A stretch of DNA of 64,000 bases, taken from the NCBI GenBank assembly GCA_028753945.1, contig JAPNXP010000004.1, forward strand, positions 310,001-374,000, in the 5' to 3' direction. The notes under the pieces were generated by a model that was not told where the DNA came from, ran no database searches, and was given only the letters and a program-made list of their open reading frames with translations. The DNA is from Hexactinellida sp. DTS-2022. Its lineage: Eukaryota > Porifera > Hexactinellida. The position numbers were made by a program, and so were the translations under genes. Within the stretch, counting starts at the first letter, position 1. Each line of letters starts with the position of its first letter. This document shows positions 10,043-35,300 of this stretch, piece after piece.

Positions 10043-13000
10043 TTAGACAGAAGATTCTGAATGTGCATATTCTTTTTCTCTAAGTAAGGATTGAGGGATT
10101 GCACTATTGGTAAAGCCACTCAATCTTGAATGTCTCGTCTTAGATTGTATTGTCATCTTTAGTTGTCGAATTTGTTGTTTAAATTGTTCCAAATTAGCAT
10201 TTTGCTTCTCAATCATATTTGATATATCGTCTAGCTTTCCATCTGAGGCTAATTACAGATTTGAAACAAATAAAAACAAATAGTACAGTGGTATTTTCCT
10301 AATAGAAATCACTCTAATAAAAATATTGCTCTATTGATAAGTTACTTTTTAATGTTAATTGTGCTCCTCTAATACCAAGTTTACCTAGTACAATCGACTC
10401 CGCTTAATAGAGTCACCTCGGGACCAGGTCGATTTGACCCGATTAAGCGGAGAAATCTTCTAACCGAAAATCTTCTAGCCAAAATGTAATTCCATCCTAT
10501 AAATCCTGTGAAATTTTGACCCGATTAAGCAGTGAAATATATTAACCGGTGGCTTTATAAAGCGGAGTTGACTGTAATACCTTTACCTAGTATTTGCAAG
10601 CAAATTTCATACGAAATTCAACTTGTGCTATTACATAAAGTAACAATTTAGCTCACAATAATAACCTACTTTTTTGATAAGCTTTCCATTGATTGCTCTT
10701 AATGACTACCTCAGGATGGTAGCTCCTACGGCGAATGCATCCTATGGCATTACGTGTAACACGTACGATATACTTCAATCTGTATAAAGCAACGATTCGT
10801 TCTGACTTGCTTTTGGTAGTTGCATAGGTATCACTCACCTACAAGGAGTTATAAATTTAATCATTTGGTTTAACATACAATCTTATTTACATTATGATTG
10901 CTTATTGTGAACCCAGAGAGCAATAAATGTATGTACAGTCAACTCTCGTTATAACGAATTGCTTGAGACCTGTAAATTCCTTCGTTATATCCGGATATTC
11001 GTTATAAGCGGATAATAATTAATGCATTTAGTGCTCTGGGAGAAAATCTCCATTTCGTTATATCCGACTTGGTTATAACGGGAGTTTACTGTATATTAAT
11101 GATAATAGAAATCTTATGGAAACTTTAAAATTTGAATCAGAGGATTTGCCTATTAACAAGTGATTTTTAAATACAATAATTCAGTTCCTTTAATAATATG
11201 CATATTTGTTGAAAATATAAAATAACAAAAGCGATTTGCTAAATAGCTTACCTGAGCAATGAATATGTTCAGTAGGATGACAATAATAAGTCCCATCGCG
11301 AACAAGTATATAATCGCATCCAACCAATTCAAATTGTTGAATAGGTAGTTACCTTCTAGAATATTCTCTCCTTGTAACAGCACGCGTAGCATGAAAAGTA
11401 GAGTCCAATGGAAATGGTCGTATAACCCTTGTACTCCGATATCATTTGCACTTACATTAGTTAATACCCCAGGGCCATACCCAGGTGCACGTAATGCAAT
11501 GAAAAACGATTCTGATATGGCGAGAATAATCGTAAAGCTGACTATACAGAATTTTGGCACATCATTCAATGTTATAAGCCCAATTGTATGTACGTACGTA
11601 CCAAATCCAGGCAAAAGTCGCACAACTTTAATAAACCTCATGAATTGTATGAAAATTGTTAGTGTTGCGAATATCCATTGTACTGGACTGTTTACCAAAC
11701 GAAGTGGAAATACAAGGAAAAGAACAACAATGCCTAGGATATCAAAATAATTAAAAATGTCCATGAAATATAACTTTAGCACGCCACGTAATACCATTCC
11801 TACAAGCGATTCAATTTCTTTCTGTTTTTCTCTAACTATGTTTAACTCTTTGTAGTAAATACGTATGAAATCAGTCACAATTTCCATTATTTCCGCAACT
11901 AAATTGTTGAACCATAAAATTGCAACAATTACCTCGAAAACGGCTCGAGCATAATCGAGACTGTTTGTATACTGTAGCGGATTTGGTTCAATAGCAGCCG
12001 TCGTGAATATGAAAAACAGCGAAAATAGGAAGAATAACAGAAACAACATCTCACTTATTAAATAATAATATCCCAAATTCCTCATTTTATTATCAACAAT
12101 TACCCTAACTGGTGCGAAATACGCAAATTCATCATCATTTGTATCTGCGAGCATTTGTAGTGGAGTTATGCACTTTGCACTGAATTCATGGCTGTCTGGT
12201 GTAAAACCATCGTAGGATGACTCGAGATACTTTGAACATATAATAACTATAAATAGTAATATTAATAATTATGGGGCTTATTTATAAATGGCTAACACCT
12301 TTTTAATTAATTAACTAACACAACGAATACTTGAATATAACTCAGTTTTTTCTAATAGCAAAATAGCCAGGGTTACTTTATAAAAGTTACCTTTAAAACT
12401 AAGTGCCTAAATTTAGTATATCACGAAAACTGAGCTCTATATAAGTTATCTCTTAATAGAAAACCCCGGCTTTGTAAAAATGTAATTTCTTGATGTTAAA
12501 AATTAATGATAATGATTCGTTGACTTTGACTCTCGTTAGTCGGAAAAACAAATTTCAATATTTTTTTGCTAAATGAATTATTATAACAAACTTTTTACTA
12601 AAACCCTTACCTTTTCTGGCCCTCAATTCTGGCACTCTACTTAGCAAAGAAAGAATAGCTTCTTTTAAATGAATTTTTTCAAATTTTGAAAGTAAATCAT
12701 GCAAATGAGCAAGTGCTGTTGCTTTTGATTCGTTATTAAGCATCATAGAGAGCACTTGATCGAAAATCTGTTCATCTTGAATAGACTTCTCATTAACTCG
12801 GAGTGCATAATCTAATGCATTTAATCCCTTTTTATCACGTGTGAACATGTGAGCTCCACTTTCTAATAATATTTTCATTGTCTGTGAAAATCCATTTTTG
12901 GTTGCAACAATTAAAGGTGTTTCTCCCGTTATATCCGTCATTTCAATACTACCTTCTTGATTAATCAAAAGAGCAATTATGTTATGCCAACCTTCTTCTG

Positions 13001-14629
13001 CTGCGCAAAATAATGGAGTTCGTCCTATAATACAGATAAAATAAACTACAGTTTTTGTATATATGTAGTCTAAATTATATTTTCCCAAAGATCTTGTCTC
13101 TTTTTTAATTATTTTTTTAACTCCTTTTTTCAAACCTAATATCCAAGATTCGACTGTTATGAAATATTTGCACTGATGTTAAATATCATAATTCAGGTTA
13201 AACAAACTTAAATGTTACAATAAATGTTTGAGACAAGATTAAGAGGAAAAATTTAGAGGAAAATATAATTCTGTAAATTTTTACAGTTTTAAATGCAATA
13301 CTGTTTCATTCAACATTAACTTCACAATAAATTTATACACATAGCACAACAGAAACTTTATAATATTACCTTTGTTATCCTTGAGAGCTAAGAGATAGCT
13401 TTCTTGTATCAAATCTTGCACTATTTCTACTGACACACCATTCAATGCAGCTACGTGTAACGGAGTGCATCCTACAGCATTCGGTATTTCACTGTTTGCT
13501 CCGTTCTTTAGCAATAGAGTTGTAGCCGCAGCATGTCCTACATATTATAAGATAATTATGTAAACCGTTTAGAAGTAAGGTTAAGATAGGATTCTTAATT
13601 TGGGGTAAAATTAATTATCTCCTTTCACTCAACATAATCAATAAAATAGTTCGAAAAGTGCAATTTTGCAAAATCAATTGATTTAAGTGACTTGTACATA
13701 CAGTACTTTCCATTTTCCATATCCCATATATAATTAGTCAGGGGTAAATTGATTTTGCTCACTAGGCCAAGGGGTAAACGTAAATTCACTTACAACTAGA
13801 GCAATCTTGTTATTAGGGAAATTTATATTATGTAAACCCAATGTATTTAATTAGCTCTAACCATTCTCAATAGCTAAGTGTAACGGAGTGTTGTTAAGCA
13901 CTATAATCTCTTCATAGTCGTTGTATTGCTTGGTTTGTATGTTGATATCCACCTCAGAATATTCTAGAAGCAAATTCAGTTGGTCACATCTCCCTTCGGC
14001 TGCCGCTGTGTGGAGAGGAGTTACCCAACTAGAAACGATATTTTCCATTTCTTTAGAAATATTTCCAACACCTCTTCTGCGAAAACTAGAACTTTGCATG
14101 CTGCTAATGCTTTCCTGACTCTCTACCATATCATCACTTGGCTAAAATTCGAAATTTATAGCGAATGTCATATTAAATATTTGGAAGTACTTACATGTTT
14201 AAATACAGTGAACTTCCGTTATAACGAAGTCGGATATAACGAAAAAACCACTTTTAACTAAATTCACATTTCCCTCAGAGCACTAAATGTATTAATTATT
14301 AACCGCTTTTAACGAATATCCGGATATAACGAAGGAATTTTCAAGTCCCAAGTACTTCGTTATAACGAGAATTCACTGTATGAATTATCAAAAGGTTGTG
14401 AAATACATTTTACGTATTTTGATATCACAGCAGTTGCATGCAACACTCAAACTGCACTCTTTTTATAATTCCAAAGAAAAAATATACAGAAAAATAAATT
14501 GCTTAAACTCACCACTTTTTTCCGTTTCAGCATTTGCATTTGCGCATTTTTCCGATCACTTTTCCCATATCTTTCCGAAGAAGAAGGCTTGCCAGGATCT
14601 AAGTACTTACTAGCTGGTTTATTATTCAT
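10043..14629 (-). CDS. Ankyrin-repeat TRP-type cation channel
   Basis: Seven exons: 14629-14513, 14141-13862, 13537-13370, 13024-12611, 12246-11252, 10838-10670 and 10248-10043. They total 2349 nt (782 aa), with phases agreeing at every junction. After a basic N-terminal tail come about five to six ankyrin repeats (roughly residues 73-275; TPLHTAAAEGR, TPLHLAIENGH, TPLHVAALNG, TPLFCAAEEG, TPLIVATKNG). A six-helix ion-transport domain follows (about 355-640), with basic S4 (FMRFIKVVRLLPG), a pore loop (HWTLLFMLRVLLQGEN) and S6 ending LLNIFIAQ. The reading continues VSDTYATTKSKSERIV, an S6-proximal linker, then a coiled-coil-like C-terminus (IEKQNANLEQFKQQIRQL). Ankyrin count and length are like TRPV, but the S6/linker wording is unlike vertebrate TRPV or TRPA1, so I do not assign a subfamily. 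It should sit in a membrane and pass cations. Confidence 0.88.
10389..10576. repeat. Family C MITE (TRP-like gene, last intron)
   Basis: ta-caatcgactccgcttaatagag ... aaagcggagttgactg-ta, with internal tgacccgattaagcgg blocks repeated in both orientations. Confidence 0.8.
10934..11093. repeat. Family B MITE (TRP-like gene intron)
   Basis: ta-cagtcaactctcgttataacg ... ggttataacgggagtttactg-ta; internal ccggatattcgttataagcgg. Confidence 0.8.
14214..14380. repeat. Family B MITE (TRP-like gene intron 1)
   Basis: ta-cagtgaacttccgttataacg ... cgttataacgagaattcactg-ta, inserted between the first and second coding exons. Confidence 0.8.
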
Positions 14630-16024: not shown

Positions 16025-19000
16025 TTAATTATTAGAGTACATCTTCTTGATTATGCCAGCATATTTCTCAACAACAAATATTCTCCTTAGTTTAGCAGTA
16101 GGAGTGAGTTCTCCAGTGTTGATGGTAAAGTTGAGTGGAAGAATTGCGAAATCCTAAAAATGAAAGCTAAAAATACAGTGAACGAAGTCGAAGGGACCCT
16201 TTATTGATTTAAATCAGTTACTTTATCCATTTGGGGAATACTATACAGTAGAACCTCGTTAGTATGAACACGGTTAATAAGAAACTCCGGTTAATACGAA
16301 CGAACACTATTTTAGTCCCCTTCAAATATTTTCAATACAAATGACACTGGTGCCATTTGTATTGAAAATATTTGAAGGGGACTAAAATAGTGTTCGTTCG
16401 TATTAACCGGATGTTCGTACTAGAGGTTCTACTGTATATAACTTCGTTATAAGCGGGTATTTCGTTATTACCGACTTCGTTATAACGGGAGTTTACAGAA
16501 TACACATCATAACATTAACATAGTAACTATTAATAACCTTTATGATACACTGATGGTTCATGGCTCTCTCATTAGCTCTGCTAATCCCTTCCTGAATGTA
16601 CTTCCTGACGACAGGACTCTCCATCACCTCACTCACCTTACTCAACTCAACTCCCAGACTCTTGCAAATGCCTACAGCTTCTTCGTCTAGCTCGTCTGTG
16701 GGAGTTCCCTCTGCACTCAGTTTGCACTTCACAGTCACTAACATATTGAAATACTCCCTCGCTTCTCCCACTACAACGCAGAAGGCACACAGTTTCAGTT
16801 CTTTCTTCATTTCATCCTCGATTGGCATTGGGATCACGTTTTGCCCTGAGGAGTGAATCAGTATCTCTTTGATTCGGCTAGTAATCGAAACGATTCCTAT
16901 ATGCAGTCATAGATAACTACCAATATTAGTCATTAGAATAGACATATTTTGAGCATCGTAATCTGATTATAGATCCCTTTAGAAACTAGGATAGAAATCG
17001 GAATTTGATCGAAGATTTTCTAGCAAACGATCTCGATTCCTTTTTCTGATTAACACAGCCTTTTTTACATCAAATTTATATCATTTTCTTCTTAATCAAT
17101 AAAGCACACAACATTTATATCAATAATTTACAATCATTAATTTTTTTGCATTAATTAGTGCATAAGACGACCACTTTTGGCTCAAATATATAGCAACAAA
17201 CTACTATATTATCTCAATATCTGCCTGATTGAAATATCAAAGGATCGTAAAAATGATCATAGATTCTTATATAAACTACCTTATTATAGGAAATTATCGC
17301 GCCATGAAATTATCGCGAAGGAAATTAACGCGATTTGGAGAAATTCGCGATTTCATGGCGTTAATTTCCTATAATAAGGTAGTATAAATCATGATTTCAC
17401 CTAGGATTGGCATCGGAATCTCGATCTTTTTCACGATCGCCTAAAGGCCTATTTATACTACTGACCTTCTGAATCAACACGACCAATATCTTCAGTATGA
17501 AACCAGTTATCATCATCAATAGCTTGAGCTGTTTTCCCGACATTTCTCAAATAACCCATAAATATGTGTCTACCTCGAATGCAAATCTCTCCTTCTCCTT
17601 GGCTATAAATAGCAGATATATTGTGAAATTAAAGCGGCATTATATATGGATTTTCAGATCACTTATGAATGTTTAATTATAGTAGAATCTCGTTAGTACG
17701 AACACGGTTAATAAGAATTTCCGGATAAGACGAACAAACAGTTCCATAAAGTCAGGTCCCTACAATGGCTATTCAATGGGTATTACTCCGGTTAATACGA
17801 ACACCGGATAAATCGAACAAATGTTTACCGTCCGTTGGTGTTCGTTTTAACGAGGTTCTACTGTATATGGTTTTAATAGATAGTCTTTCTCACCTATTCG
17901 GTTGATGAATTTTTAACTCTGCACCTTCCATTATCTTACCAACAGCTCCATACTTGTTAGAATCCGCGAGAGAGAATGTACAAGGGCCTGTTGTCTCGGT
18001 ACAACCATAGGCATTGCTTATTGGCAAATTCGCACTGTCAAAGAACTCAAGAACTGACACATTACAATGTGATGATCCTGTTAACTGATTATACATAAGT
18101 TAATAAACAATCAATTTAAATGATCATATTATTACCAGAATATTTGTGTTCTTAAAACCCAATTTGTTTCTAACATCTTCCAGTTTGATTCTATACAAAT
18201 AGAATTTGGATAATACTAGAATAATAAGTATGTATGTACTACATTTAACCCGCTGTACGTATATACTAATTAATATATTCTATTTTTTATAGTATGGTAA
18301 TTTCCATAGGGTAATTTCCATAAGTAGTAAATTTATACAAATCCTATGGGTAATGTGTTTTTTGAGTTTAAAAATGTTGTAACCCATCTGAAAATTTGAA
18401 CACAGTCAAATTTATGCTTATTTATTACTTTTCATTATATAACTATAACCATTCGTAAATTTACCAAATTATTATTGGCTGCAACATAAATATTGCAATA
18501 ATCTTTCATTAAGAATTCTGAGTTTATTAAATTAATACTTATGTGAAATTTACTATATTTAATTTGAAAATACATACTCTCCTGATTTGACAGCTGGCTC
18601 AATTTTGGTGTACATCCCAAGCAATATGGCAGGCAAACCTAAGAAAATATCCGGCTCAACTTCCTACATGAAAAAAGATTAATTATATTGCAAAGTAGCA
18701 AAAAGGGTAAGGTAGTAAACCCAAACGGATTAAATTAGTGATTAATAGCTTTAATAGTAAGATTGTGTTAGCAACATATTTGTTTAATATACGAATTGCA
18801 AATAGTCAAATCAAAATGATAATTAAATACCAAAGTTGAAACCGATTCAACTAATACTGATTTTACCAAATAGCTATCCAACCAAAAAGTTGTTTTACTA
18901 AATAGTTGTTCAACCAAATAACGAATACATACTAATATTCGGTATTAACAGAATAAAACTATTTGGCTAATACTATTGGTTCAACTGGATATCTAACTAT

Positions 19001-20316
19001 TATACGGTTGCAAGTTGCAACCTTATTAAATACCTTAATAGTTTGGGCTAGAGTCCCAACCATAGCATCTCTATCAGCAAAATATGTAATACATCCAGAG
19101 ATGAGTGGACAGTAAATATCCTAAAAACTTATATAAATTCAAACCAGAAAATGGTATTGCATTTATACTTACACATAACTGTCCTCCAATATGACTGAGT
19201 GGAAGATAGCTTATTGATGTATAGCCCTATGAAAGCACTTACTCTGGATAAAACATAGATATTACTATTGTTGCCTTCAAATGGTCTTACCTATATTATA
19301 TTTTTTGTTATTAAAATGCAGCAAAGTTTGTATACATATATCGTGAGTTAACATTATTCTGTTACTGTAGTATTAATATTTACACCTATATAGCAACGTA
19401 CCTGTTTGTATTTATACGAATTTGTGAATACAGTTGTGAGGTAGATGAGGCTATCATGACTTAACATCACACCCTATTTAGTATTCACATTTGAAACAAG
19501 AAAGTACAATGCATATTCAGCGATTTATTTGTACCTTTGGCATGCCAGTAGTCCCTGACGTGTATATGAGAGTACTACAGTGTCCAGGTTTCTGAGCACT
19601 CATAATAGCTTCTATTTCCTCTGTCTTCACGTCCTATGTAGAGAGAGAGAGAGAGAGAATAAACAGAGACTGAGATTAGAATTGGTGCACAGACTACCTT
19701 TCCTTTCTGTAGGAACTCATCCCAGCTGATGACACCTTCCTTCCTGAGAGACTCCTCCACAGGGCCCGGTGAGTACTGCACTAACTTCAGCCCTGGTATA
19801 CCCCTCCCGGCTTCCAGCAGCTTTCTCAGGATCAGAGAGTGCTCTCCTATCGCAATGCGACTACGGGAATTCTCCAGGATAAACCTTGTCGTCTCCACAT
19901 TGTTAGTTGTGTAGATGCCAGTGGCTAGTCCCCCTGCCATAATGGTTCCGAGATCTGCCATCATCCACTCGGGGGAATTGTACCCCATAATGCTGACTCC
20001 CTCAAACCGCTTCAGCCCAACAGCCACCAGTGACTTGGCTACTCGCATACACTGATCATACCACTCAGAGAATGTAGTTGTCTCCCATTTACCATCTCGC
20101 TTCACACTAAGTGCTTTGTTGGATCCGAATTTGGAGCAACTCTCTTTGAACACATCAGGAATGGTGCGAGCTGGGATTGCACTCAATCCTTCTTTTCCAA
20201 CCTTAAAGTGAGAAAGTATTTACTGAAGTATAATTAATTCAATAAACCATTTAACTAACCTTGATGGATATCTCTCCATCTGGTTCAGTTATCCAGTTAG
20301 TTAAAGACCCAGCCAT
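16025..20316 (-). CDS. Bubblegum-type long-chain acyl-CoA synthetase, paralogue A
   Basis: Twelve exons: 20316-20260, 20201-19698, 19633-19535, 19473-19402, 19226-19173, 19120-19034, 18663-18578, 18190-18136, 18084-17894, 17602-17466, 16896-16538 and 16153-16025. They total 1830 nt (609 aa). It belongs to the ANL superfamily, whose members activate fatty acids to acyl-AMP and then acyl-CoA. Visible motifs are the P-loop YTSGTTGMPK (exon 3 into 4), SYLPLSHIGGQ, EVEPDIFLGLPAI and YGCTETTGP. The A7/A8 region is altered: C has YKTGD where A has FHTED, C has ITGRIKE where A has ITSRIKE, and C has TSGGEN where A has HSSGQN. The C-terminal lysine region (LTPTAKL) is kept. Exon 2, intron 2 and much of exon 11 are almost identical to paralogues B or C. 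Catalytic activity is therefore uncertain, although the frame is intact. Confidence 0.9.
16174..16497. repeat. Family B-related MITE split by a family A MITE (ACSBG A intron 11)
   Basis: The left end ta-cagtgaacgaagtcg and the right end cgttataacgggagtttacag are parts of one element. They are separated by the family A copy at 16244-16436, which has its own TA flanks. The order of insertion is thus B-type first, A-type later. Confidence 0.7.
16244..16436. repeat. Family A MITE with a perfect 57-bp hairpin
   Basis: ta-cagtagaacctcgttag ... agaggttctactg-ta. Bases 16287-16343 and 16354-16410 are perfect reverse complements (57 bp each) around the 10-base spacer acactggtgc. Confidence 0.9.
16962..17274. 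repeat. Dispersed repeat family J copy (ACSBG A intron 10)
   Basis: Contains tttgatcgaagattttctag, a cctttttctgat block, a gtgcataagacga block and a gagctcaaat-like block. The same order of blocks occurs at about 42400-42650 in a WDR5 intron. Confidence 0.55.
17275..17384. repeat. Long imperfect palindrome (ACSBG A intron 10)
   Basis: The left arm actaccttattataggaaat-ta returns as its reverse complement at the right end. Inner blocks cgccatgaaat and atttcatggcg also pair, interrupted by tcgcga-rich sequence. It looks like a small palindromic MITE. Confidence 0.75.
17678..17865. repeat. Family A MITE, subfamily with gataagacgaacaaacag (ACSBG A intron 9)
   Basis: Shares the inner block gtccctacaatggctatt and the ending ccgtccgttggtgttcg with the copy at 28463-28610 in intron 9 of paralogue C. 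The two are in opposite orientation relative to their genes. Confidence 0.75.
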
Positions 20317-20708
20317 CTCTAATCAACTTATAATTAATATCTCTAAGATTCTAACTTCCTAAAATAGCAAAATTTCTTTTGATAAGGCACTTATAGAGAA
20401 AATAAGTATAAAGGAACAATTCTAAAACTGTAAAGCAATTTTACATATCATAATTATTTTTGTGCACCAGATGTTCATTCAGCTATGTATGTATCATGTT
20501 AAATTGTAAAATGGTTTAACCGTTATATGAAAAATCTAAAATTACAGGTGTGCAGAGTTTTGTTAAATTATGTGATCTACATAAGTGAAAGACCGAACTC
20601 CTCTTAAATAGAATCTTGGTTAAATAAGGGTATATACTACCATTTACTACAATGGTTAATTCGAAAAAATAAACTAATTAGGATTGTTTAGTTAGATTCG
20701 AAAAAATA
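20317..20708. other. Intergenic, ACSBG B 3' side to ACSBG A start
   Basis: 392 bp of AT-rich DNA. It should contain the ACSBG A promoter and the ACSBG B 3' UTR. No clear motif is recognised. Confidence 0.5.
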
Positions 20709-23700
20709 TTAAGAATACATCTTATCGATGATGTCTGCATATTTCTTAACAATAATGCCTCTCTTCAGTTTAACAGTAGGAGTGAGCTCTCTTGTGTTGA
20801 TGGTAAAGTTAAGTGGAAGAATCGCGAAATCCTAAAAACGAAATATTAGCACACACATCATAACAAAGTAACTTATTAATAACCTTTATGGTGCACTGAT
20901 GGTTCATGGCTCTCTCATTAGCTCTGCTAATCCCTTCCTGAATGTACTTCCTGACGACAGGACTCTCCATCACCTCACTCACCTTACTCAACTCAGCTCC
21001 CAGACTCTTGCAAATGCCTACAGCTTCTTCGTCTAGCTCGTCTGTGGGAGTTCCCTCTGCACTCAGTTTGCACTTCACAGTCACTAACATATTGAAATAC
21101 TCCCTCGCTTCTCCCACTACAACGCAGAAGGCACACAGTTTCAGTTCTTTCTTCATTTCCATCTCTATCGGCACTGGCGCTACATTCTGTTCGGATCCTA
21201 TCACCAACATCTCCTTTATGCGACCAGTTATCCACAGAAAACCTTAAAAAATCATACACTTATTGTTATTTTTGTATACTAGAGTAGATACCAGATATAA
21301 GTACACCGGTTATAAGAACATGCCAGATAAAAGAACATTCTACTGGAAAAAACGGTTGGAAAACGATTATACTCCTACATAATTTATGTCGGTGATAATA
21401 AAATTATATGCAGTCCCCACGATGTTATTATAACCGGCATCCACTGTCATATAAAGCACATTAAATATAAATATATTTTCTCGGTCTTGAGGTATTCTTA
21501 TACGATATACACTGTTCAACCTCGAGAGCATTACAAAGCGCACTGTAAGTATACTACAGTAAACCTTCAGAAAGTAAACACCCTGGGGACCAGCCAAAAT
21601 GTTCACTTTTGAGAGGTGTTCGCTTTTCATGAATTATCATAACGTGTGTCTAAAGTAAAAAAAGGGGAAATTTTGGGACCGAGAAAAAGTGTTCAGATTT
21701 TAGAGTTGTTCATTCCTTGAAGGTGTTTACTTTTGGAAGTTTTACTGTATATTTTTATTGCTAAATTGCTAATTCTAGTCAGAAAAGTATTTTTTCATCT
21801 AAAATTCATGCTCTTTAGATTTTATATTGCACTAGTCTATGGGTAATAATTCATTTAAGAAGCTCTTAACATTATGCTACCTTCTGAATCAATGCTTCCG
21901 AAATCTCCTGTCTGATAAAATCCATCTGAATTCATAACTTCGGCTGTTTTCTCAGAATTTCGGAGATATCCCATAAACATGTACCTTCCTCTAATCAAGA
22001 TGTGACCCTCCCCATCACTACAGTAGATTGCAATATATAAATACAGTGGTGTTCGCGTTATAGCAAGTCGCATTTTGCACGAAATTTTTTGCTAATGGCG
22101 AACTTGCTATTAGGGTAACAAAATTAACATTAAATGCTCGCTTTGGTACTGAAAATAACTTGTTAATAGAGCAAATATTGCTATTAGAGCAATTTCTATT
22201 AGGCGAACACCACTATATAGGATTGTAGTTTGAATTAAATAAAAATAACATCACCTATTCGGTTTGTCTATAATTACTTCGCAGCCTTCTATGGGTTTTC
22301 CAACAGAACCGTATTTATTATATTTTGGGACACACATTGAAATCGGCCCACAGACCTCTGTACAACCGTAGAGGTTGTAAATTGGGAGTTTCGCACTGTC
22401 GAATAACTTGAATAATGCAAGCGGAGTAATTGCACCAGCAGTTAACTAATTGGAAATAATAATATTTAGTTGTATTTATTCGATAAAATATATCAAAATG
22501 AACAATATTTCTAATTTCTAATATTTATTTGTATTATATCTGACACCAATTGTTGTTGTTGTTGTTGTCTAGTGTAGTTATTTTCTGTAAAACTTACCAA
22601 ACTTTCTGATTTGCTAAGTCCAATAGATTTTGCAACATCTTTAAGGAGCAATCTTAACAAAAATATTAACTCAATAATACGTATAACAATTTCTAAACTT
22701 TAAAAGCACTTTTCTAAATATAATTTCAGGTAATTGCATGGTCATTTTCTTTAACATCAAAGATTCACCTTGCAATGCCTGGTTTTGATATAAAAAGGTG
22801 TTGGTCATTAAATAAGTAAGCCTGACAATATTTAGATTTGTAACTAACGTACTTTCCATTCCTGATTTCGGGTTCCACTTTCTCAAAGAGTATCTCCCAA
22901 ACCCGTGGGACTCCCAAGAATATATTCGGTTCTACTTCCTATGAAATTAATAAATAATAACAAACTATATTTTGGGAAAAATGCACAAATAGAATTAGAA
23001 ATTGCATCAAACTTGCCTTCAGTGAATCTAATAGTGAACCACTTAACACATCAGGTTGTGCAAAGTACACTTCACATCCAATTAACAGTGGAATGTAGAA
23101 ATCCTATATTTATCATAGTAATATTTTTTGTTACTAATTATATTCAAATTTCACTCTTAACTTGAATAGTAATAGCAGTTGCTTTAATTGCAATTTGTTA
23201 AATAGCATAATATTAATCCCTAAGCGAGCATTTAATTTAATTATATTCCTCTAATTGCAAGTTTGCACATTAACAAAGAAATTTATTGCAAATATAACTT
23301 GCTATAATGCAACTCAACTGTATTAAAAACTAAGTATTATGTGCTATTAGAATCTGCAGCTAACATGTTAAATTACTCAACCCTACCTTTTCCTAAACTT
23401 ACTAATATATGTCCTAGCACGTGACTGAAAGGGAGATAGCTCAAAAGACGTTGTCCCTAAGGCGATACAGTAAACACAGTCTTAATTCGTAAAAAATAAC
23501 TTACCTGTTTGAAACCGCATCCCACGATCATAACCATTACTATCCAAATCATGTTGTCATGACTCAACATAGTACCCTATTGGAAAACAAATGAGAATCT
23601 CAAAAGTAAAATATGTGACTTATTACATAAATCTACAGTCGACTCCGCTTAATCGGAACAAATCTTAGGAAACAAAATGTTACAATTAGAGTCTCGAATG

Positions 23701-24827
23701 TATTTTAATTCATTATAAAGCAAAAAACCTTTGGCATGCCAGTTGTCCCTGATGTGTACACCAATGTACTACATTGTCCAGGTTTCTGAGCTCTCATAAT
23801 AGCTTCTATTTCCTCTGTCTTCACGTCCTATGGAGAGAGAGAGAATAAACAGGAATCAACAAATAAACAAAATGTTTTGTGTGCATAGGTTTAGTATGAA
23901 CTCGCTTACAAGCCACTGAATTACTAATTATTATGTATATGGGAGCATCTCTCGAATTTGACAATCCTAAAAGTTTCCTTTCAAATTTATGCCTTGCTAG
24001 AAGTTGCTAATATGCAATATTATAGGCAATATTACAGACTACCTTTCCTTTCTGTAGGAACTCATCCCAGCTGATGACACCTTCCTTCCTGAGAGACTCC
24101 TCCACAGGGCCCGGTGAGTACTGCACTAACTTCAGCCCTGGTATACCCCTCCCGGCTTCCAGCAGCTTTCTCAGGATCAGAGAGTTCTCTCCTATCGCAA
24201 TGCGACTACGGGAATTCTCCAGGATAAACCTTGTCGTCTCCACATTGTTAGTTGTGTAGATGCCAGTGGCTAGTCCACCTGCCATAATGGTTCCGAGATC
24301 TGCCATCATCCACTCGGGGGAATTGAACCCCATAATGCTGACTCCCTCAAACCGCTTCAGTCCAACAGCCACCAGTGACTTGGCTACTCGCATGCACTGA
24401 TCATACAGTTCTAGTGTTGTAATGAACTCCCATTTTCCTTCTCGCTTTACATTTAACATTTTGTTAGACCCGAATTTGGAACAACTCTCTTTTAACAGTT
24501 CAGGAATGGTGCGAGCTGGGATTGCACTTAAGCCTTCTTTTCCAACCTATAAAGAATATTATGAAGATACAAATTCATATTTGTTAATTCTTACAATACA
24601 AACTAGTCAACTCTCGTTATAACGAAGTGCTTGGAACCTGTAAATTCCTTCGTTTTATTCGGATATTCTTTATAAGTAGATAACAATTAATAATTATTGC
24701 ATTAGTGCTCTGGAGGAAATCTCCATTTCGTTATATCCGACTTCGTTATAAGGGAGTTCACTGTACAAACCTTCACTATGATTTCTTCATTCGGTTCACA
24801 AACCCAATTCTTTAAATTTTCAGCCAT
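20709..24827 (-). CDS. Bubblegum-type long-chain acyl-CoA synthetase, paralogue B
   Basis: Twelve exons: 24827-24771, 24546-24043, 23827-23729, 23576-23505, 23456-23403, 23103-23017, 22938-22853, 22652-22598, 22445-22255, 22017-21881, 21242-20884 and 20831-20709. They total 1824 nt (607 aa). Exon lengths equal those of A and C except the last, which is 6 nt shorter. Motifs are YTSGTTGMPK, SYLPFSHVLGH, EVEPNIFLGVPRVWE, YGCTEVCGP, YQTGD, ITGRIKE, and LTPTVKLKR at the C-terminus. The SGGEN position reads GSEQN. Intron 6 uses a GC donor (AAG|GCAAGT at 23016), the only non-GT donor I found. Intron 11 is only 52 bp. Exon 4 (IVMVMIVGCGFKQ) is the most deviant stretch. The frame is intact and it is probably an active enzyme. 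Confidence 0.91.
21281..21447. repeat. Family D MITE (ACSBG B intron 10)
   Basis: Begins near gtagataccagatataagta and ends cttataaccggcatccactg-like; the internal caccggttataagaacat is diagnostic of the family. Confidence 0.65.
21555..21749. repeat. Family E MITE (ACSBG B intron 10)
   Basis: ta-cagtaaaccttcagaaagt ... acttttggaagttttactg-ta; shares ggggaccagccaaaatgttc with the copy at 25488-25684. Confidence 0.8.
22042..22217. repeat. Family G MITE (ACSBG B intron 9)
   Basis: ta-cagtggtgttcgcgttata ... attaggcgaacaccactata, with inner gcaagtcgcattttgcac. Fragments occur near 23.2, 28.0, 29.5 and 63.4 kb. Confidence 0.75.
22715..22825. repeat. Dispersed repeat family I copy (ACSBG B intron 7)
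   Basis: Contains catcaaagattcacctt, gcctggttttgatat and aaaaggtgttggtcatt..aagtaagcc. Confidence 0.55.
23172..23326. repeat. Degenerate family G MITE (ACSBG B intron 5)
   Basis: Shows the ccctaagcgagcattta, tcctctaattgcaagttt and cttgctataatgca blocks of family G, but the left terminus is decayed. Confidence 0.5.
24602..24765. repeat. Family B MITE (ACSBG B intron 1)
   Basis: agtcaactctcgttataacg ... cgttataagggagttcactg-ta. The right end lies 5 bp from the exon 1 donor at 24770. Confidence 0.75.
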
Positions 24828-25419
24828 CTATAGAAGAATCTGTTCCGAAATATAAAGAGATAACACAGTAGATATTATCCACTTAAGTACAGAAGGAATC
24901 CTAACTTCAATCCTTGTTACACTAATAAGCTGATTATTCCTAAATTAGTGAATTTTTCAAATAATTTGAATTATTCAGTGACTTTGAATTAATTATTTCC
25001 AGATGGATAATTATTAATACTCCTTCATTGTAATCTTTTCCCCCCAAATAACCTGATCTTTGCAGATGCCATACAGTATGTATTGATTCTAATAACTATA
25101 GCACTATATATATCTTGCAAGTAATTTTACCTGTTTGGAGATCAGATAACAAAACTGTCGATGAGTATAAATTTGAAATATTATGCGTAAACCAGAACCC
25201 AACAATATATACTGTATAATAAATATTCCCTAATGCATATTTCGGAGGACTGAAACTATGCAAGTTTGCGTCATTTTCGGAAACTCATAATTTCACCCTA
25301 AATTTATTACGCATGTTTATATAAAAAGCGACCATGATTTTGCCTGTTAAATCACTGTTTATAACTTTATATCCTCTTCAGTCACCTATTTACTCTTTAT
25401 TATTTCTAGCAAACTAAAG
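24828..25419. promoter_or_regulatory. Divergent promoter interval between ACSBG B and ACSBG C
   Basis: The two start codons lie 592 bp apart, pointing away from each other, so the interval must carry both promoters or one bidirectional promoter. It is AT-rich and, unlike most gaps here, free of the CAGT-type elements. No specific transcription-factor site is claimed. Confidence 0.5.
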
Positions 25420-28400
25420 ATGGCTGAGAAATCTGCGTTATATGCGAGCAGTCCGCAAGACGAAGTACACATCAAGGTAAACAAATTTACAGTTAAACCT
25501 TCAGAAAGTGAACTCCCTGGGGAGTGGGGACCAGCCAAAATGTTCTCTATTAATTAAGAGGTGTCACTTTTCATAATTTATCATAACTTGTGTCTAAAGC
25601 AATGGGGAAAATTTGGGACAGATAAAAAGTGTTCATATTTTGGAGTTGTTCGTTTCGGTGTTCACTTTTGGAGGTTTTACTGTATTATTATGGATAATAG
25701 ATTAACATATCGATCTGAAATATATTTTTTAACAGTATTTTCTTGTATTCTTCCGCGGAAAATCCATCGCCAAAATTTTCAACTTATGTACTTTCATATA
25801 ATTCTAATTTGCTCTAAAGTTTTCATTCAACATTAAAATTCATTCGGTTCGGTCTATTTAAGACCTACCATATGCTGTAATAAATTTAAAAAATTTCACA
25901 GGTTGGGAAAGAAGGCTTGAGTGCAATCCCAGCTCGCACCATTCCTGATGTGTTCAAAGAGAGTTGTTCCAAATTCGGATCCAACAAAGCACTTAGTGTG
26001 AAGCGAGATGGTAATTGGGAGACAACTACATTCTCGGAGTGGTATGATCAGTGCATGCGAGTAGCCAAGTCACTGGTGGCTGTTGGGCTGAAGCGGTTTG
26101 AGGGAGTCAGCATTATGGGGTTCAATTCCCCCGAATGGATGATGGCAGATCTCGGAACCATTATGGCAGGGGGACTAGCCACTGGCATCTACACAACTAA
26201 CAATGTGGAGACGACAAGGTTTATCCTGGAGAATTCCCGTAGTCGCATTGCGATAGGAGAGCACTCTCTGATCCTGAGAAAGCTGCTGGAAGCCGGGAGG
26301 GGTATACCAGGGCTGAAGTTAGTACAGTACTCACCGGGCCCTGTGGAGGAGTCTCTCAGGAAGGAAGGTGTCATCAGCTGGGATGAGTTCTTACAGAAAG
26401 GAAAGGTAGTCTGTGCACCAATTCTAATCTCAGTCTCTGTTTATTCTCTCTCTCTCCATAGGACGTGAAGACAGAGGAAATAGAAGCTATTATGAATGCT
26501 CAGAAGCCTGGACAATGTAGTACTCTCATATACACATCAGGGACAACTGGCATGCCAAAGGTACCGTATATACAGTGTATATACTGGCATTTGTAAATAC
26601 GCTCCTTATTCTGGTCTGATTCAATTTCCATTGGCCTAAATCACAAATTAATGCTACGGTATAGGAGAAAATTCCAAATTTTGGCGCTCCTGATTAAATT
26701 TTTTCAAAAATCATACTCCAAAAGGAGCGTCTCGCGCTCCTGGATAATTCCTTGCGTGTATAATTTATTTTAACATTTTACAAGTGTTTTTTTTGTTGTA
26801 CATACATAGGGAGTCATGCTATCTCATGATAATCTCGTTTGGACAACAAATGCGCTACAAGAAACCTACAATTTCAAAGTGGTTAGTTTTATAGAAACAA
26901 CAACTTTATCATTTGGATGTTTGTAACAATTATGCCATAACTTTCCTATAGGGTACTCCTATTGTTAGCTATCTCCCTTTGAGTCATATTGCAGGGCAAA
27001 TAGTGGTATGTTAATTTTTGCAAATTATTAATTGTTATTTACTTGTATTATTATTTATTATTTATTTCTGTGTGTAGGATATAATGATACCTATAAAAGT
27101 TGGTTGTCATGTTAACTTCGCTCAACCAGATGCTTTGAAGGGCACCTTAGTAGAAACAATAAAGGTAAGAATTAAAATCAATAATTTAGTTTAATTATAT
27201 TTATTTGAAATTATCGTAGTATCAGTTACTTATTGTTTGCTTTTTATTTTATCACTTTGTTTGATACTTATTTTTTTGTAGGAAGTTGAGCCTACTGTCT
27301 TCTTGGGAGTTCCACGAGTTTGGGAGAAAATGATGGAAAAACTTGAGCCAGCAGTGAAAGCAAAAAAGTATGCTACAAATGCAAATATCCAAAATATAAT
27401 GATATTTGTTATAACTATAGTTCATATTACATAACAAATTTTTCGGTTTAGTTAAAATTTCATTTTTCAACATTTGTATAATTTATCTACAGACTCCCAT
27501 TGGAAGCTATTAAATCACAATTAGGACTTGCAAAAGGAGAATTATACGTGAGTTTGTAAATTATTGAGTGGAATTAACAGTGAAGGACAGAGTAGTATAA
27601 AATTGAACAAATATTCATATTTCGCGATCATTACTTTACTTGAACTGAACATACAAAAGGTTTCCTGATAAAATAACGCTTTAAATATAGTATAATTCAT
27701 TCAACATTTATTTGACCTTAATAGTACATTATTTTCTGATTTATTCAGTTAACGGCTTCCGCTCCAACTCCCATTACAGTTCTTGAATTCTTTGAAAGAG
27801 CTAATATCAGATTACACAATATATACGGCTGTAGTGAGAACTCTGGTCCGGCTACTGTATCACTGCCCGGGAAAAACGTTCGTGGGGCAGTAGGGCAGGT
27901 TATGGCGGGTACTGAAGCAAGGCTAGATAAGCCAAATAGGTATGTTGTTATTTACAGTGGCCTTACTTTTATAGAATTTATTATGTCAAAAATTCAAGAA
28001 CGAGGAAAAATTAATTGAGGTTTGAGTAATAGCAAGTCGCATTTGGCACAAATTTGCTTGCTAATAGGCGAAATTGCTATAAATATTAATATTCACACTA
28101 CTGAATAATAAATACAGTAGACTCCACTGAGTCTTAATTAATAGATCCACTGGTCACATTTCACAAGATTTATAGAACGGAATTATAATTACTTACAATA
28201 TTTTCGGTTAATTTTAACTGGCCTCATATCAAGTGACCCAATTAAACGGATTTGACTGTATATTTATTAATTTAAGTACACACATAAATATAATCGTATT
28301 GTGCACAACTAACTTGTGTCTAATACACTTGTAATTAGACTAAACTATTGTTCATTTACAATCTTAGTCATCAGAATGAACGAATATTCGTTCGTTTAGA

Positions 28401-29852
28401 AAAAGGTTCGTTTGTTACATTTCGAATATTCGTTTCAGCCCTAATTATAATACCAACATAAGTACAGTAGAACCTCGTTAGTTATAATACATTTAATACG
28501 AATTTCCGGATAAGACGAACAAACAGATCCACAAAATCAAGTCCCTACAATGGCTATTGAATGGGTATTTTACCGTCCGTTGGTGTTCGTATTAACGAGG
28601 TTCTACTGTAAGTATATAATTGTATTGTGTACATAGTGATGGAGAGGGAGAGTTGTGTCTGAAAGGCAGACACATATTTATGGGGTACCTAAATAATAAG
28701 GAGAAAACCCAGGAAGTTATGACCAAAGATGGCTTTTACAAGACCGGAGATTTGGCTAAGATTGACTCAGAAGGTAACATTAGTTTCTAGTTATACCGAC
28801 TCAATTAAATTAGTTTATAATTTGTGAAAAAGTACATGTGTAGTATTTTCATAGGGTTTGTATACAGTCATGTTATTGTGAACAATTTTCGTCTGCTTTA
28901 TTAATATGAATTTTTTTTCTTATACATGTATACCAAAATATTTTTTGACAATTTTTTGTATTATTTTTGTAATAAGTTGAATTCGCTTTTTTTCATAACC
29001 AAAATTTTACTCCCTTGAGTATTCATAATAATAGCACCTGACTGTTTTTATTGTTTGTGGTTCAATTCAGGTTTCGTGTGGATAACTGGTCGCATAAAGG
29101 AGCTGATTATTACCTCGGGCGGTGAGAATATCGCCCCGGTGCCGATAGAGATGGAAATGAAGAAAGAACTTCTGTTATGCGCCTACTGTGTTGTAGTAGG
29201 AGATGCGAAGAATTACTTAAATATGCTAGTGACTGTGAAGTGCAAACTGAGTGCAGAGGGAACTCCCACAGACGAGCTAGACGAAGAAGCTGTAGGCATT
29301 TGCAAGAGTCTGGGAGTTGAGTTGAGTAAGGTGAGTGAGGTGATGGAGAGTCCTGTCGTTAAGAAGTACATTCAGGAAGGGATTAGCAGAGCTAATGAGA
29401 GAGCCATTTCTAATGCAGCAAGAGTGCAGGTAAGCTCCTATTCGATTAGAGTAATGCTAGGAAATTCGGGTATAATGGAGTGGCCGAAGTAAAATTGAGT
29501 AAATTGCTGAATATTATACAGTTGTGTTGGCCTATTAGCAATTTAGCAAGTAATTTTCAGTCCCCAAGCGAGCATTTTCATTAATTTTGTTCCTCTAATA
29601 GCAAGTTTGCCTATTAGCAAGCAAATTTAATGCAAAATACGGCTTACTATTATACGAACAATGTAGTTTAAATATACCTGCATACATATACCTGTGCATA
29701 AATTAAACTATTTTATTATTTAGAAATTCGCCATTCTCCCCCGGGATTTCTCCATTGCTGGAGACGAGCTAACTCCGACTGCTAAACTGAAGCGAAGCTT
29801 TGTAGCGAAGAAGTATGCTGATGAGATCAACAAGTTATACGCTTTAACTTAA
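25420..29852 (+). CDS. Bubblegum-type long-chain acyl-CoA synthetase, paralogue C
   Basis: Twelve exons: 25420-25476, 25902-26405, 26462-26560, 26810-26881, 26952-27005, 27078-27164, 27282-27367, 27493-27547, 27749-27939, 28637-28773, 29071-29429 and 29724-29852. They total 1830 nt (609 aa) with intron phases identical to A and B. This copy is the most canonical: P-loop YTSGTTGMPKG, YLPLSHIAGQ, FAQPDALKGTL, FLGVPRVWEKM, YGCSENSGP, YKTGD, ITGRIKELIITSGGEN, and C-terminal LTPTAKLKR with the expected lysine. The family converts long- and very-long-chain fatty acids, ATP and CoA to acyl-CoA. Compared with my memory of vertebrate ACSBG (about 660-720 aa), about 40 residues between the VPRVWEK block and the YG-S/T-E block are absent, as in A and B. 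Exon 2 differs from that of A at only two residues. Confidence 0.93.
25488..25684. repeat. Family E MITE (ACSBG C intron 1)
   Basis: ta-cagttaaaccttcagaaag ... cttttggaggttttactg-ta, sitting 11 bp after the exon 1 donor. Confidence 0.8.
26590..26755. repeat. Dispersed repeat family N copy (ACSBG C intron 3)
   Basis: Contains aaatacgctcctta, ggcgctcctgatt, tccaaaaggagcgtctcgcg and ctggataattcc. The reverse complement of this block order is present at about 44262-44425. Confidence 0.6.
28113..28260. repeat. Family C MITE (ACSBG C intron 9)
   Basis: ta-cagtagactccactgagtc ... aattaaacggatttgactg-ta. Confidence 0.7.
28300..28442. repeat. Truncated hAT-like MITE copy (ACSBG C intron 9)
   Basis: The right part of the 8557-8924 element is repeated here: catcagaatgaacgaatatt, then cgaatattcgtttcagccct. 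Confidence 0.65.
28463..28610. repeat. Family A MITE (ACSBG C intron 9)
   Basis: ta-cagtagaacctcgttag ... aacgaggttctactg-ta; same subfamily as the copy at 17678-17865. Confidence 0.8.
28863..29045. repeat. Family F MITE, degenerate (ACSBG C intron 10)
   Basis: ta-cagtcatgttattgtgaac, tcgtctgctttattaatatg and ttgagtattcataataata blocks match the better copies at 38.4 and 47.9 kb. Confidence 0.6.
29517..29664. repeat. Family G MITE, degenerate (ACSBG C intron 11)
   Basis: cagttgtgttggcctattag ... aaaatacggcttactattat; inner ccccaagcgagcatttt is shared with the other family G copies. Confidence 0.55.
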
Positions 29853-32390: not shown

Positions 32391-35300
32391 ATGTCAGGTG
32401 GAATGTGTTGTATTACAAATGGAGAAAACATTGAAGGCAATGAGGAACAGAGTAAGCAAAGAGAACAGAAAAGAAAACACAAACAAATCTCACAAGATCT
32501 CAAAATAGAAAAAGCTAGATATGATAGAACGCATCGTCTCCTATTGTTAGGAGCTGGTGAATCAGGAAAAAGTACCATAGTTAAACAGATGGAATTAGCG
32601 TTTCTAAACGGATTCAGCGATGAATACAGACTTGAATTTGTAAGTGGTTGAATAGAAATCTTAAAAATAAATACTAACTTTTGTTTATCTAAAGAATTCT
32701 TTTCTATCTATACAAGAAACCATTTTAGGTAGCTGTTTAGCTTATACATATTTGGTCATGAAAGAGGGGTAATGGTTGTTAGTACAGTAATTTTAGTGCA
32801 TTTGTTTATACGAGCCTTTTCCTGATGTAATTTTCAGGGACTAGCAAGGTCATTTTTAACATCAAATATTCACTTTTGCGAAGCCGGGTTTTATATTGAA
32901 AACTTGTTTGCTGATAATATAATACAGCTATAATAGAGCTAAGACAGCTAATAAAACGCAATTTGTAAGAATTGACAGAACAACAATTTGTTTACTTATC
33001 TCTGATAAGACGAACTAGAAATTATATTATTTTATTATTCTGTATATACACTTTATTTAGGCTGAAATAATTCGCCGGAATCTACTTGATGCCGTACAAA
33101 CAATACTGAATGTGATGCCTAAGTTCTCAATATCTCTCAATGACAGAAACCTAGAAGCGCACAGGGAATACATTCTAACTATTACACAGAATGGATCTCA
33201 TCTTCCAGCAAGATTTTACGATAGTTGTCGTAAGATAGCTTTAGACCCAGCTATTCTAAAGTGCCTCAAAAGGAATAACGAATATCAGAGCTTGGACAGT
33301 GCTTCATACTTTTTAGAGCCAAATAAGATTTGTGAGATTGCTAGAGAGAACTATACACCAAATGATATGGATATTCTAAGAAGTAGGTAAGATGCGATTA
33401 ATGATAATAATAATAATAATATATATTTACAGTCAACTCTCGTTATAACGAAGTGCTTGGGACCTGTAATTCTTTCGTTGTATCCGGATATTCGTTATAA
33501 GCGGATAATAATTTATGCATTTAGTGCTCTGGGAGAAATTTCCATTAATTATATCCGACTTAGTTATAACGGGTGTTTACTATGACATTGCAGTATAATT
33601 TTGTTAGTACGAAAATCTAAAATTACAGCTGTGCAGACAGCATTTTATCGTGGAGGAACTATTAGTAATTAAACCACCAAATATATTGCCTCCAAATGAA
33701 AATGCAGTCGGCACAGCTTTAATTTTAGATTTTTTGTTTTTCTTTGCCATTTATTTTACATTTTACAGGGCCACTATACTATGGTATAGTCGGCACAGCT
33801 GTAATTTTAGATTTTTTACTGGTCCACTATATACTATAGTCGGCACAGCTGTAATTTTAGATTTACTGGGCCACTATACTATACTATAGTCGGCACAGTA
33901 AATATTACATTTATAGATGCTTGTTAATTCCATTGCTTAAAATATATAGGAAGAGAACCGAGGGAATATTCGAGACTAAATTCGAGATGGAAGGCGAGTA
34001 TTTCCACATATTCGATGTAGGAGGACAGCGAGAGGAACGTAAGAAATGGATCCAATGTTTTAATGACGTCACAGCTATAATATTCGTAGTAGAAAGCTCA
34101 GGTTATGACTGTGTTATTAGAGAAAATGATGAGACAAATCGTTTGGAAGAGTCATTGAGACTTTTTGAGAATATTTGGAAAAATCATTGGTTGAAGAATA
34201 TTTCGATTATATTATTTCTGAATAAACAAGATGTCCTTGAGTTGAAGGTAATACATAATGGCTTACTTATATCGGCTAACACCTTTTCTAATGTAATTTT
34301 AAAGCACTGACAAGGTCATTTTTGACATTAAAAATTCACCTTTTCGAAGCTGGGTTTTTATATTGAAAGGTGTTGACCGATAAATGTATAAGTAGCCCAG
34401 TAATAATTATTGTTTTATTTAATGTAATGTATCAAACAATGTAGTAGTATTATACTTATTTAATTGTACTGAAATATTGAAAGTCGTAATTACTCTTCGA
34501 AAAAAGTATTTTTCGCGCCACTGAAATCAACAGAGAAAAATGGATGTTTGAGTGTATCCAAAGCTGACATTCTTGTTTGTGGATTTAATTCTAACATTGA
34601 TTTTAACAAATCATAAACAGAATCCGGATATTGATCAGCTGGTTTAATTTCCTTCTCTTCATTAACAGAAATATCTGAACTAATTTCCTTGCTTTTAAGT
34701 CTATTACTTCTACGTGGTGTTATTTCATGCTGACTCGTGTTCATTAAATCTGTATCCGATTTTGTTCTCGGCGATTTTAAAGTTTCGTTCGCTTTGTACT
34801 CTACAGCTACAACTCCTCTTAGGGTCCTACATAGACTGGTTAGCTCAAACCCTTTGATATACGGCTGGCATGTCATTTCCTTATGCATTGCCCTAGCTGC
34901 GGTTTGTACCGCGTCAGTACCGAAAATAGTCGCCATATGTCCCAGAGCAGTTAGGTCATCTTGCGACTTGAAGAATGGGTATCGGCCGGTTAGGATCGAG
35001 AATAGGATTATGCCAGATGCCCATATGTCGATCTCTACTGTGTGCGGAGAGTACTTCATTAGGACCTACAAATACAAATACAAATATAGTAAAACCTGTT
35101 AATAATTACAGCCAAAGGGACTGGCCAAAAATTGGCTGCTATGTACAGGTGACTGCTACTTATGGTTCGATTGCTCTTTGTTGAGATCAAAAATATATTC
35201 TAGTCGAAATTCTTAAAAATTTACTTATTCTATCATCAAAATTGGTGTTTGGGGCATTCAAACGTTACGTACGCAAAATTCCAAGAAAATTATATGACAG

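Follow-up and report, generated by a model that had tools for sequence, protein, structure and literature searches.

The window analysed here is a 64,000-nucleotide stretch of the genome of the sponge Hexactinellida sp. DTS-2022 (C13:310001-374000; genome 112.4 Mb, 18 contigs). Within 14 kb of it (16025-29852) lie three intact ACSBG-like acyl-CoA synthetase genes of 12 exons each, designated A, B, and C, whose resemblance to one another is a mosaic. Two islands of near-identity, one around exon 2 and the other in exon 11, are set in genes that are otherwise strongly diverged. This mosaic is very probably best explained by repeated ectopic gene conversion among the linked copies. The near-identical tracts have sharp bounds beyond which synonymous divergence (dS) is high, an intron is included, and a fourth paralogue, D, represents an unconverted relative. 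Patchy conversion within the array had been proposed in a first-pass annotation, and the synonymous-divergence profile called for there, with its two islands, the run tests, the window scans, and the comparison with D all support that proposal.

Two islands of near-identity in a diverged array

Genes A and B are arranged in tandem on the minus strand, and C lies on the plus strand, head-to-head with B, with 592 bp between the start codons. The gene models thus place C in inverted orientation relative to both A and B, as first described, with A and B direct repeats of each other. All three genes have matching intron positions, open frames, and GT/AG splice sites, except for a GC donor at intron 6 of B. 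Only exon 2 (504 bp) and exon 11 (359 bp) exceed 200 bp; the others measure 54-191 bp. D, on contig C1 (~7.0425-7.0471 Mb), is unlinked to the array and shares its 12-exon plan. A more distantly related gene, E, lies on contig C16, and a decayed, intron-retaining relic on contig C3 (L035, ~2290-3002) preserves exon 1, part of exon 2 with stop codons, and part of exon 3.

Divergence along the genes (dS calculated by the Nei-Gojobori method, NG86, with our own code) is not uniform. In exons 4-10, reported at first pass to be strongly diverged, synonymous sites are indeed mostly near or at saturation: differences are found at 28/43 (A/B), 36/48 (A/C), and 34/48 (B/C) four-fold sites, and dS between array genes runs from ~1 to saturation, apart from exon 8 (0.45-0.82) and, in B/C, exon 5 (0.62), both very short. 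Protein identity across these exons is 106/228 for A/B, 111/228 for A/C, and 115/228 for B/C, compared with 108/228, 113/228, and 125/228 for A, B, and C against D. Because A, B, and C resemble one another in this core (46-50%) no more than they resemble D (47-55%), D can serve as a similarly diverged but unlinked control.

The first island comprises exon 2, intron 2, and exon 3, the last of which had been overlooked. Exon 2 of A (19698-20201) and exon 2 of C (25902-26405), 504 nt each, differ at 10 nucleotides and, exactly as stated before, at two residues. The first part of exon 2 of B is not homogenised. Across codons 25-66 there are 27 sites at which A and C share a state not found in B, and B joins them from about codon 67, in keeping with the last two-thirds of the exon proposed earlier; over codons 70-187 all three are in near-agreement. 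The dS of exon 2 is 0.15 (A/B), 0.07 (A/C), and 0.16 (B/C), compared with 1.85-2.36 against D. Four-fold sites in codons 70-187 of the alignment differ at only 2/61 (A/B), 1/60 (A/C), and 3/60 (B/C) positions, a sharp departure from exons 4-10 (Fisher P of 2e-12, 4e-17, and 1e-13, respectively).

The second island begins within exon 11. Near-identity of A and B, said to follow the first ~25 codons, sets in ~28 codons into the exon, and C joins at the VTVKCKL motif, as described, which corresponds to codon 501. C is near-identical to both A and B only from there to codon ~559; to either side, in codons 481-500 and from codon 560 onwards into exon 12, A and B match each other and differ from C. 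The weaker A/B similarity that extends to the beginning of intron 11 and to exon 12 (123-129 bp, dS 0.43) was not part of the original description. In codons 501-546, four-fold differences number 0/20 (A/B), 1/21 (A/C), and 1/20 (B/C), again far below exons 4-10 (P of 3e-7, 3e-8, and 4e-7). At the start of exon 11, B and C are the most alike pair (silent run at codons 448-467, P 0.018 with D left out), possibly representing an older patch that likewise went unremarked at first pass.

The islands are centred on exons, as would be expected if tracts had been copied from complementary DNA (cDNA), but the introns speak to a genomic template. Intron 2 aligns above shuffled sequence, best in A/C. 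The claim that A and C differ there only in the length of a CT run holds for the run itself (64 versus 56 bp introns) and fails for one further base beside the acceptor. Intron 2 of B matches C only in its first 9 and last 25 nt, the latter identical to C, and B-specific sequence in the middle, absent from the first description, parts the two island-1 pieces of B. At the start of intron 11, ~36 nt of A also give an above-shuffle alignment with B. Because the islands cross intron 2 in A/C and reach intron 11 in A/B, exchange took place in genomic DNA, as had been suggested from intron 2; copying from cDNA is refuted for these two introns and seems extremely improbable overall. For introns 1, 3-8, and 10, no pair of array genes gives an alignment that beats 20 shuffles. 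Short above-shuffle matches occur in intron 9 for A/C and B/C; the intron 9s of A and C carry a dispersed repeat.

Constraint, chance, and assembly

Could purifying selection, codon constraint, an overlapping functional element, or a mutation cold spot have kept exons 2 and 11 alike? The islands do lie mainly within coding exons. However, divergence from D is equally great in exon 2 and in exons 4-10 for each of A, B, and C, evidence against both constraint and a cold spot. At four-fold sites, differences to D in island 1 versus the core are 29/43 versus 40/51 for A (P 0.25), 27/43 versus 39/53 for B (P 0.28), and 30/43 versus 47/62 for C (P 0.51), and the A/C identity includes intron 2. Constraint is refuted by this control unless it arose in the array only, and we give it hardly any weight as an account of the mosaic.

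The islands rest on the assembly itself, so that a collapsed, chimeric, or haplotypic duplication has to be considered. The copies nevertheless differ across the core and nearly all introns, the islands differ at scattered sites (such as the 10/504 nt in exon 2 of A and C), and intron 2 of B has its own middle, making an assembly artefact very unlikely.

Chance was addressed by a window scan of degenerate codons encoding shared residues (10,000 permutations; windows of 30, 60, and 100 codons). For A/B, A/C, and B/C, P was 0.0001 at 100 codons, 0.0001-0.0003 at 60, and 0.015-0.027 at 30, whereas A/D, B/D, and C/D gave no significant result at any of the three window sizes (P 0.15-0.90 at 100 codons); chance is thereby excluded. 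A silent-site run test modelled on GENECONV (our own code, not the GENECONV program; 5,000 permutations) and including D detected A/B runs at codons 476-559 (P = 0.0002) and 110-206 (P = 0.0016) and an A/C run at codons 45-96 (P = 0.0002). This counterpart of the GENECONV check suggested at first pass gave no significant run for B/C (P = 0.13). On all nucleotides, still with D, each of the three pairs reached 0.0002. When D was omitted, silent runs gave P of 0.010 (A/B), 0.013 (A/C), and 0.018 (B/C); the test is weaker in this form because sites common to A, B, and C become invariant. Runs in A-D and B-D were not significant. In a topology test, exons 11-12 (codons 478-609) strongly favoured (A,B),C and rejected the best tree of the core (approximately unbiased, AU, test, 4e-6).

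Base composition agrees with GC-biased conversion. GC content at third codon positions (GC3) is higher in the islands than in exons 4-10 in A (0.59 versus 0.31), B (0.59 versus 0.36), and C (0.57 versus 0.35), with P from 8e-6 to 1e-8. The contrast in D is 0.66 versus 0.57 (P 0.04). As to the direction of transfer, at 28 sites where B differs from A and C, the contig C3 relic agrees with B at 13, with A and C at 10, and with neither at 5.

Several observations weigh against conversion. The GC3 contrast could instead represent ancestral GC retained in the islands. The B/C pair is not significant in the silent-run test with D, and C and D, which are unlinked, share a silent run of 5 sites (codons 394-406, P 0.0088) and a nucleotide run of 8 sites (P 0.023), both of them contrary hints. 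For exons 4-10, the AU test rejected 1/9 trees and retained the exons 11-12 winner (AU 0.23), so there is no formal conflict between segments; these exons are too undecided to contradict exons 11-12, and tree conflict was dropped as a line of evidence. Finally, amino acid identity to D is 62% in codons 70-187 of island 1 and 70-73% in exon 3, compared with 47-55% in exons 4-10, and conservation may thus contribute to island 1. It would not do so at island 2, where identity to D (54-57%) is not above that of exon 10 (54-59%).

Features of the array and its surroundings

Coordinates of the genes, islands, and core segments are collected in Table 1.

Table 1. Positions in the window of the three genes, their homogenised islands, and their diverged cores
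Feature	Position	Strand	Description and basis
Gene A, ACSBG-like acyl-CoA synthetase	16025-20316	-	12 exons, intact 609-residue frame from start to stop codon; gene model
Gene B	20709-24827	-	12-exon plan as in A, intact 607-residue frame, GC donor at intron 6; gene model
Gene C	25420-29852	+	Same 12-exon plan, 609 residues; gene model and Pfam match
Island 1 in A: exon 2, intron 2, exon 3	19531-20203	-	Matches C at 98% (557 nt) and 95% (120 nt); synonymous differences
Island 1 in B: last ~120 codons of exon 2	24034-24406	-	Matches C at 98% (373 nt) and A at 99% (300 nt)
Island 1 in B, second piece: last 25 nt of intron 2 and exon 3	23727-23852	-	94% with C; intron alignment
Island 1 in C: exon 2, intron 2, exon 3	25900-26564	+	Local matches, synonymous differences, intron alignment
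Island 2 in A: exon 11 from ~25th-29th codon	16538-16827	-	Matches B at 97% (16528-16827, 300 nt)
Island 2 in B: exon 11 from ~25th-29th codon	20884-21173	-	Match to A, synonymous differences, site patterns
Island 2 in C: exon 11	29125-29407	+	92% with B over 283 nt; site patterns
Core of A, exons 4-10, not homogenised	17466-19473	-	Four-fold differences A/B 28/43, A/C 36/48; introns
Core of B, exons 4-10	21881-23576	-	dS, intron alignment, four-fold sites
Core of C, exons 4-10	26810-28773	+	dS, intron alignment, four-fold sites

C shares the architecture of the AMP-binding family with the ACSBG acyl-CoA synthetases: its protein matches PF00501 (AMP-binding) at 240 bits (cut-off 29.9) and PF23562 (C-terminal domain) at 36.1 bits (cut-off 20.8). 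Pfam was run on C only, and A and B were assigned to the family by their alignment with C. Among the NCBIfam matches listed (25 of 103), none is an ACSBG-named model, and the best, FadD11, scores 286 bits against a cut-off of 950. The ACSBG (bubblegum) name, which we take from the first-pass annotation and from known motifs, is thus not confirmed by subfamily models. Relative to vertebrate ACSBG, A, B, C, and D appear to be without a stretch between exons 7 and 9.

Gene A has peculiarities of its own. The GVPRVWE stretch (exon 7 of A, 18578-18663), kept in B, C, and D, is lost in A alone, and in the TGRIKE motif of exon 11 (16538-16896) S replaces G. Judging from these residues, enzyme A may be altered despite its intact frame. 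Intron 11 of A (16154-16537) measures 384 bp, compared with 52 bp in B, and contains an inverted repeat with arms at 16275-16347 and 16350-16422 (93%) that looks like a mobile-element insertion. Short dispersed repeats occur at 10937-11023, 14269-14380, 24605-24691, and 33430-33516, and at 16244-16306, 17674-17784, and 28459-28569. By appearance these would resemble small inverted-repeat transposons, several of them within introns of A, B, and C. Just past the window lie direct repeats of ~1.1 kb, 7.3 kb apart (L038; ~65480-66750 and 72830-74000 in window-based numbering), possibly element ends or a segmental duplication.

How exchange could be confined to two islands

Gene conversion is a known process, of which the array provides a new case. 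We envisage A, B, and C as three old paralogues lying within 14 kb, in which a break in one copy would be repaired off a neighbouring template, copying short genomic tracts. Such exchange has recurred in all three pairings, probably at different times, and repair synthesis, rather than double crossing-over, would have moved the tracts. Conversion would persist around exons 2 and 11, the only exons above an efficient-pairing length of ~200 bp, whereas the exons of 54-191 bp, lying between introns that no longer align, would mostly have dropped out of exchange and then diverged.

We advance tentatively, as a possibility that we would not favour at present, the idea that exon-intron architecture gates conversion: once introns have decayed, only exons longer than ~200 bp and their close surroundings keep exchanging. 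Because nearly all introns of the array have diverged beyond alignment, exons 2 and 11 alone offer enough unbroken homology. In one review, the efficient-processing length is given as ~200 bp in yeast and mouse, with shorter lengths not excluded, identity above ~80% is the usual condition, and rates are higher within a chromosome and at short distance (PMC3924818). The idea is a hypothesis that draws on one array and 12 exons, and exon 3 (99 bp) and the A/B exon 12 are short and yet partly homogenised. Exon 3 would join its island via the short intron 2, and exon 12 of A and B perhaps via intron 11, which spans no more than 52 bp in B.

An alternative is that selection for divergence shields the core, converted exons 4-10 being disfavoured where the fatty-acid pocket, which we take to lie within these exons, differs between copies. 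The core does have the lowest protein identity between copies, bar the 19-residue exon 1 in A/C and B/C. A divergence peak shielded by selection has been described in opsins (PMC3924837) and discussed for Tigriopus GOT1 (PMC3728101). In the opsins, however, the introns are homogenised and one exon is diverged (PMC3924837), whereas in the array introns 1, 3-8, and 10 are unalignable too, so loss of homology is a simpler limit than codon selection. With synonymous sites near saturation, the ratio of nonsynonymous to synonymous divergence (dN/dS) is useless for the core. This opposite intron pattern favours a homology limit over selection for divergence, an alternative that we regard as possible but doubtful; both could act.

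A sample of 10 regions, nine holding 11/31 listed P450 (cytochrome P450) matches and one holding 2/14 AMP-binding matches, gave some indication of generality. It yielded 13 long open reading frames and 5 closely linked pairs, 3 of them from one tandem array. As multi-exon copy clusters, carboxylesterase (3 matches listed) and aldehyde dehydrogenase (15 matches listed) were judged unsuitable. A mosaic was found in 1/5 pairs, an inverted P450 pair on contig C14, and the remaining 4 show similarity along their whole length; sharply bounded conversion is thus not unique to the A/B/C array. The two P450 genes (C14:223841-227539; L041, G000:C14:223000-228500) stand head-to-head, and their 3' ends are 93% identical over 587 nt. 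Four-fold differences amount to 11/74 in the last 176 aligned codons versus 31/52 in the first 300; along that first part, the proteins are 42-57% identical per 60 codons. No long match lies directly downstream (best local alignment 22 nt, without a shuffle control). The non-island part is not featureless, being 78% alike across 205 nt near the 5' end. The gene apparently has a single exon, yet homogenisation is confined to the last ~590 nt; exon length therefore cannot act alone as the limit, which counts against that part of our proposal.

Two further P450 pairs were noted. L043 and L044 (contigs C1 and C17), with 97% protein identity and 2.4 kb shared at 96%, are similar throughout and probably represent a recent interchromosomal duplicate. 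L045 and L046 (contig C1, 1.2 Mb apart) differ at 46/177 four-fold sites, ranging from 1/19 to 10/21 per 60 codons, and might be another case of exchange.

Relation to known systems and significance

Among the matches listed for the limited terms searched, no title suggests conversion among ACSBG genes or within a gene array of a sponge. A close likeness is found in the copepod Tigriopus californicus, in which GOT1p1/GOT1p2 and GOT1Sd/GOT1Sr show a mosaic of low and high divergence with GENECONV-supported conversion between paralogues (PMC3728101). Conversion in the GOT1S pair falls largely in exons, with a third intron that is mostly unalignable, much as in the array. Those are pairs of two genes compared across populations, whereas the array has three genes, inverted copies among them, whose core is nearly saturated at synonymous sites and for which an unlinked paralogue serves as a control. 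Primate red/green opsins share a divergence peak in otherwise converting genes, but there it is the introns that are homogenised, with selection protecting one exon (PMC3924837), as opposed to the array, in which long exons are homogenised and nearly all introns have diverged. In yeast paralogues from the whole-genome duplication, conversion is confined to coding sequence after decay of the non-coding sequence (PMC3924837, citing a personal communication). The array is similar, except that the limit falls inside one gene, between long and short exons.

Overall, the value of the array lies in its built-in unlinked control and in the exon-length idea. It offers a clean natural experiment, in which three linked copies that exchange can be set against a similarly diverged, unlinked copy of the same exon plan that does not. 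It also calls for caution, in that whole coding sequences of such paralogues are unsafe for dating or for trees. The pattern suggests a testable rule tying concerted evolution to exon length. If true, exon length would set which domains evolve in concert, here the N- and C-terminal parts, and which diverge, here the core built of short exons.

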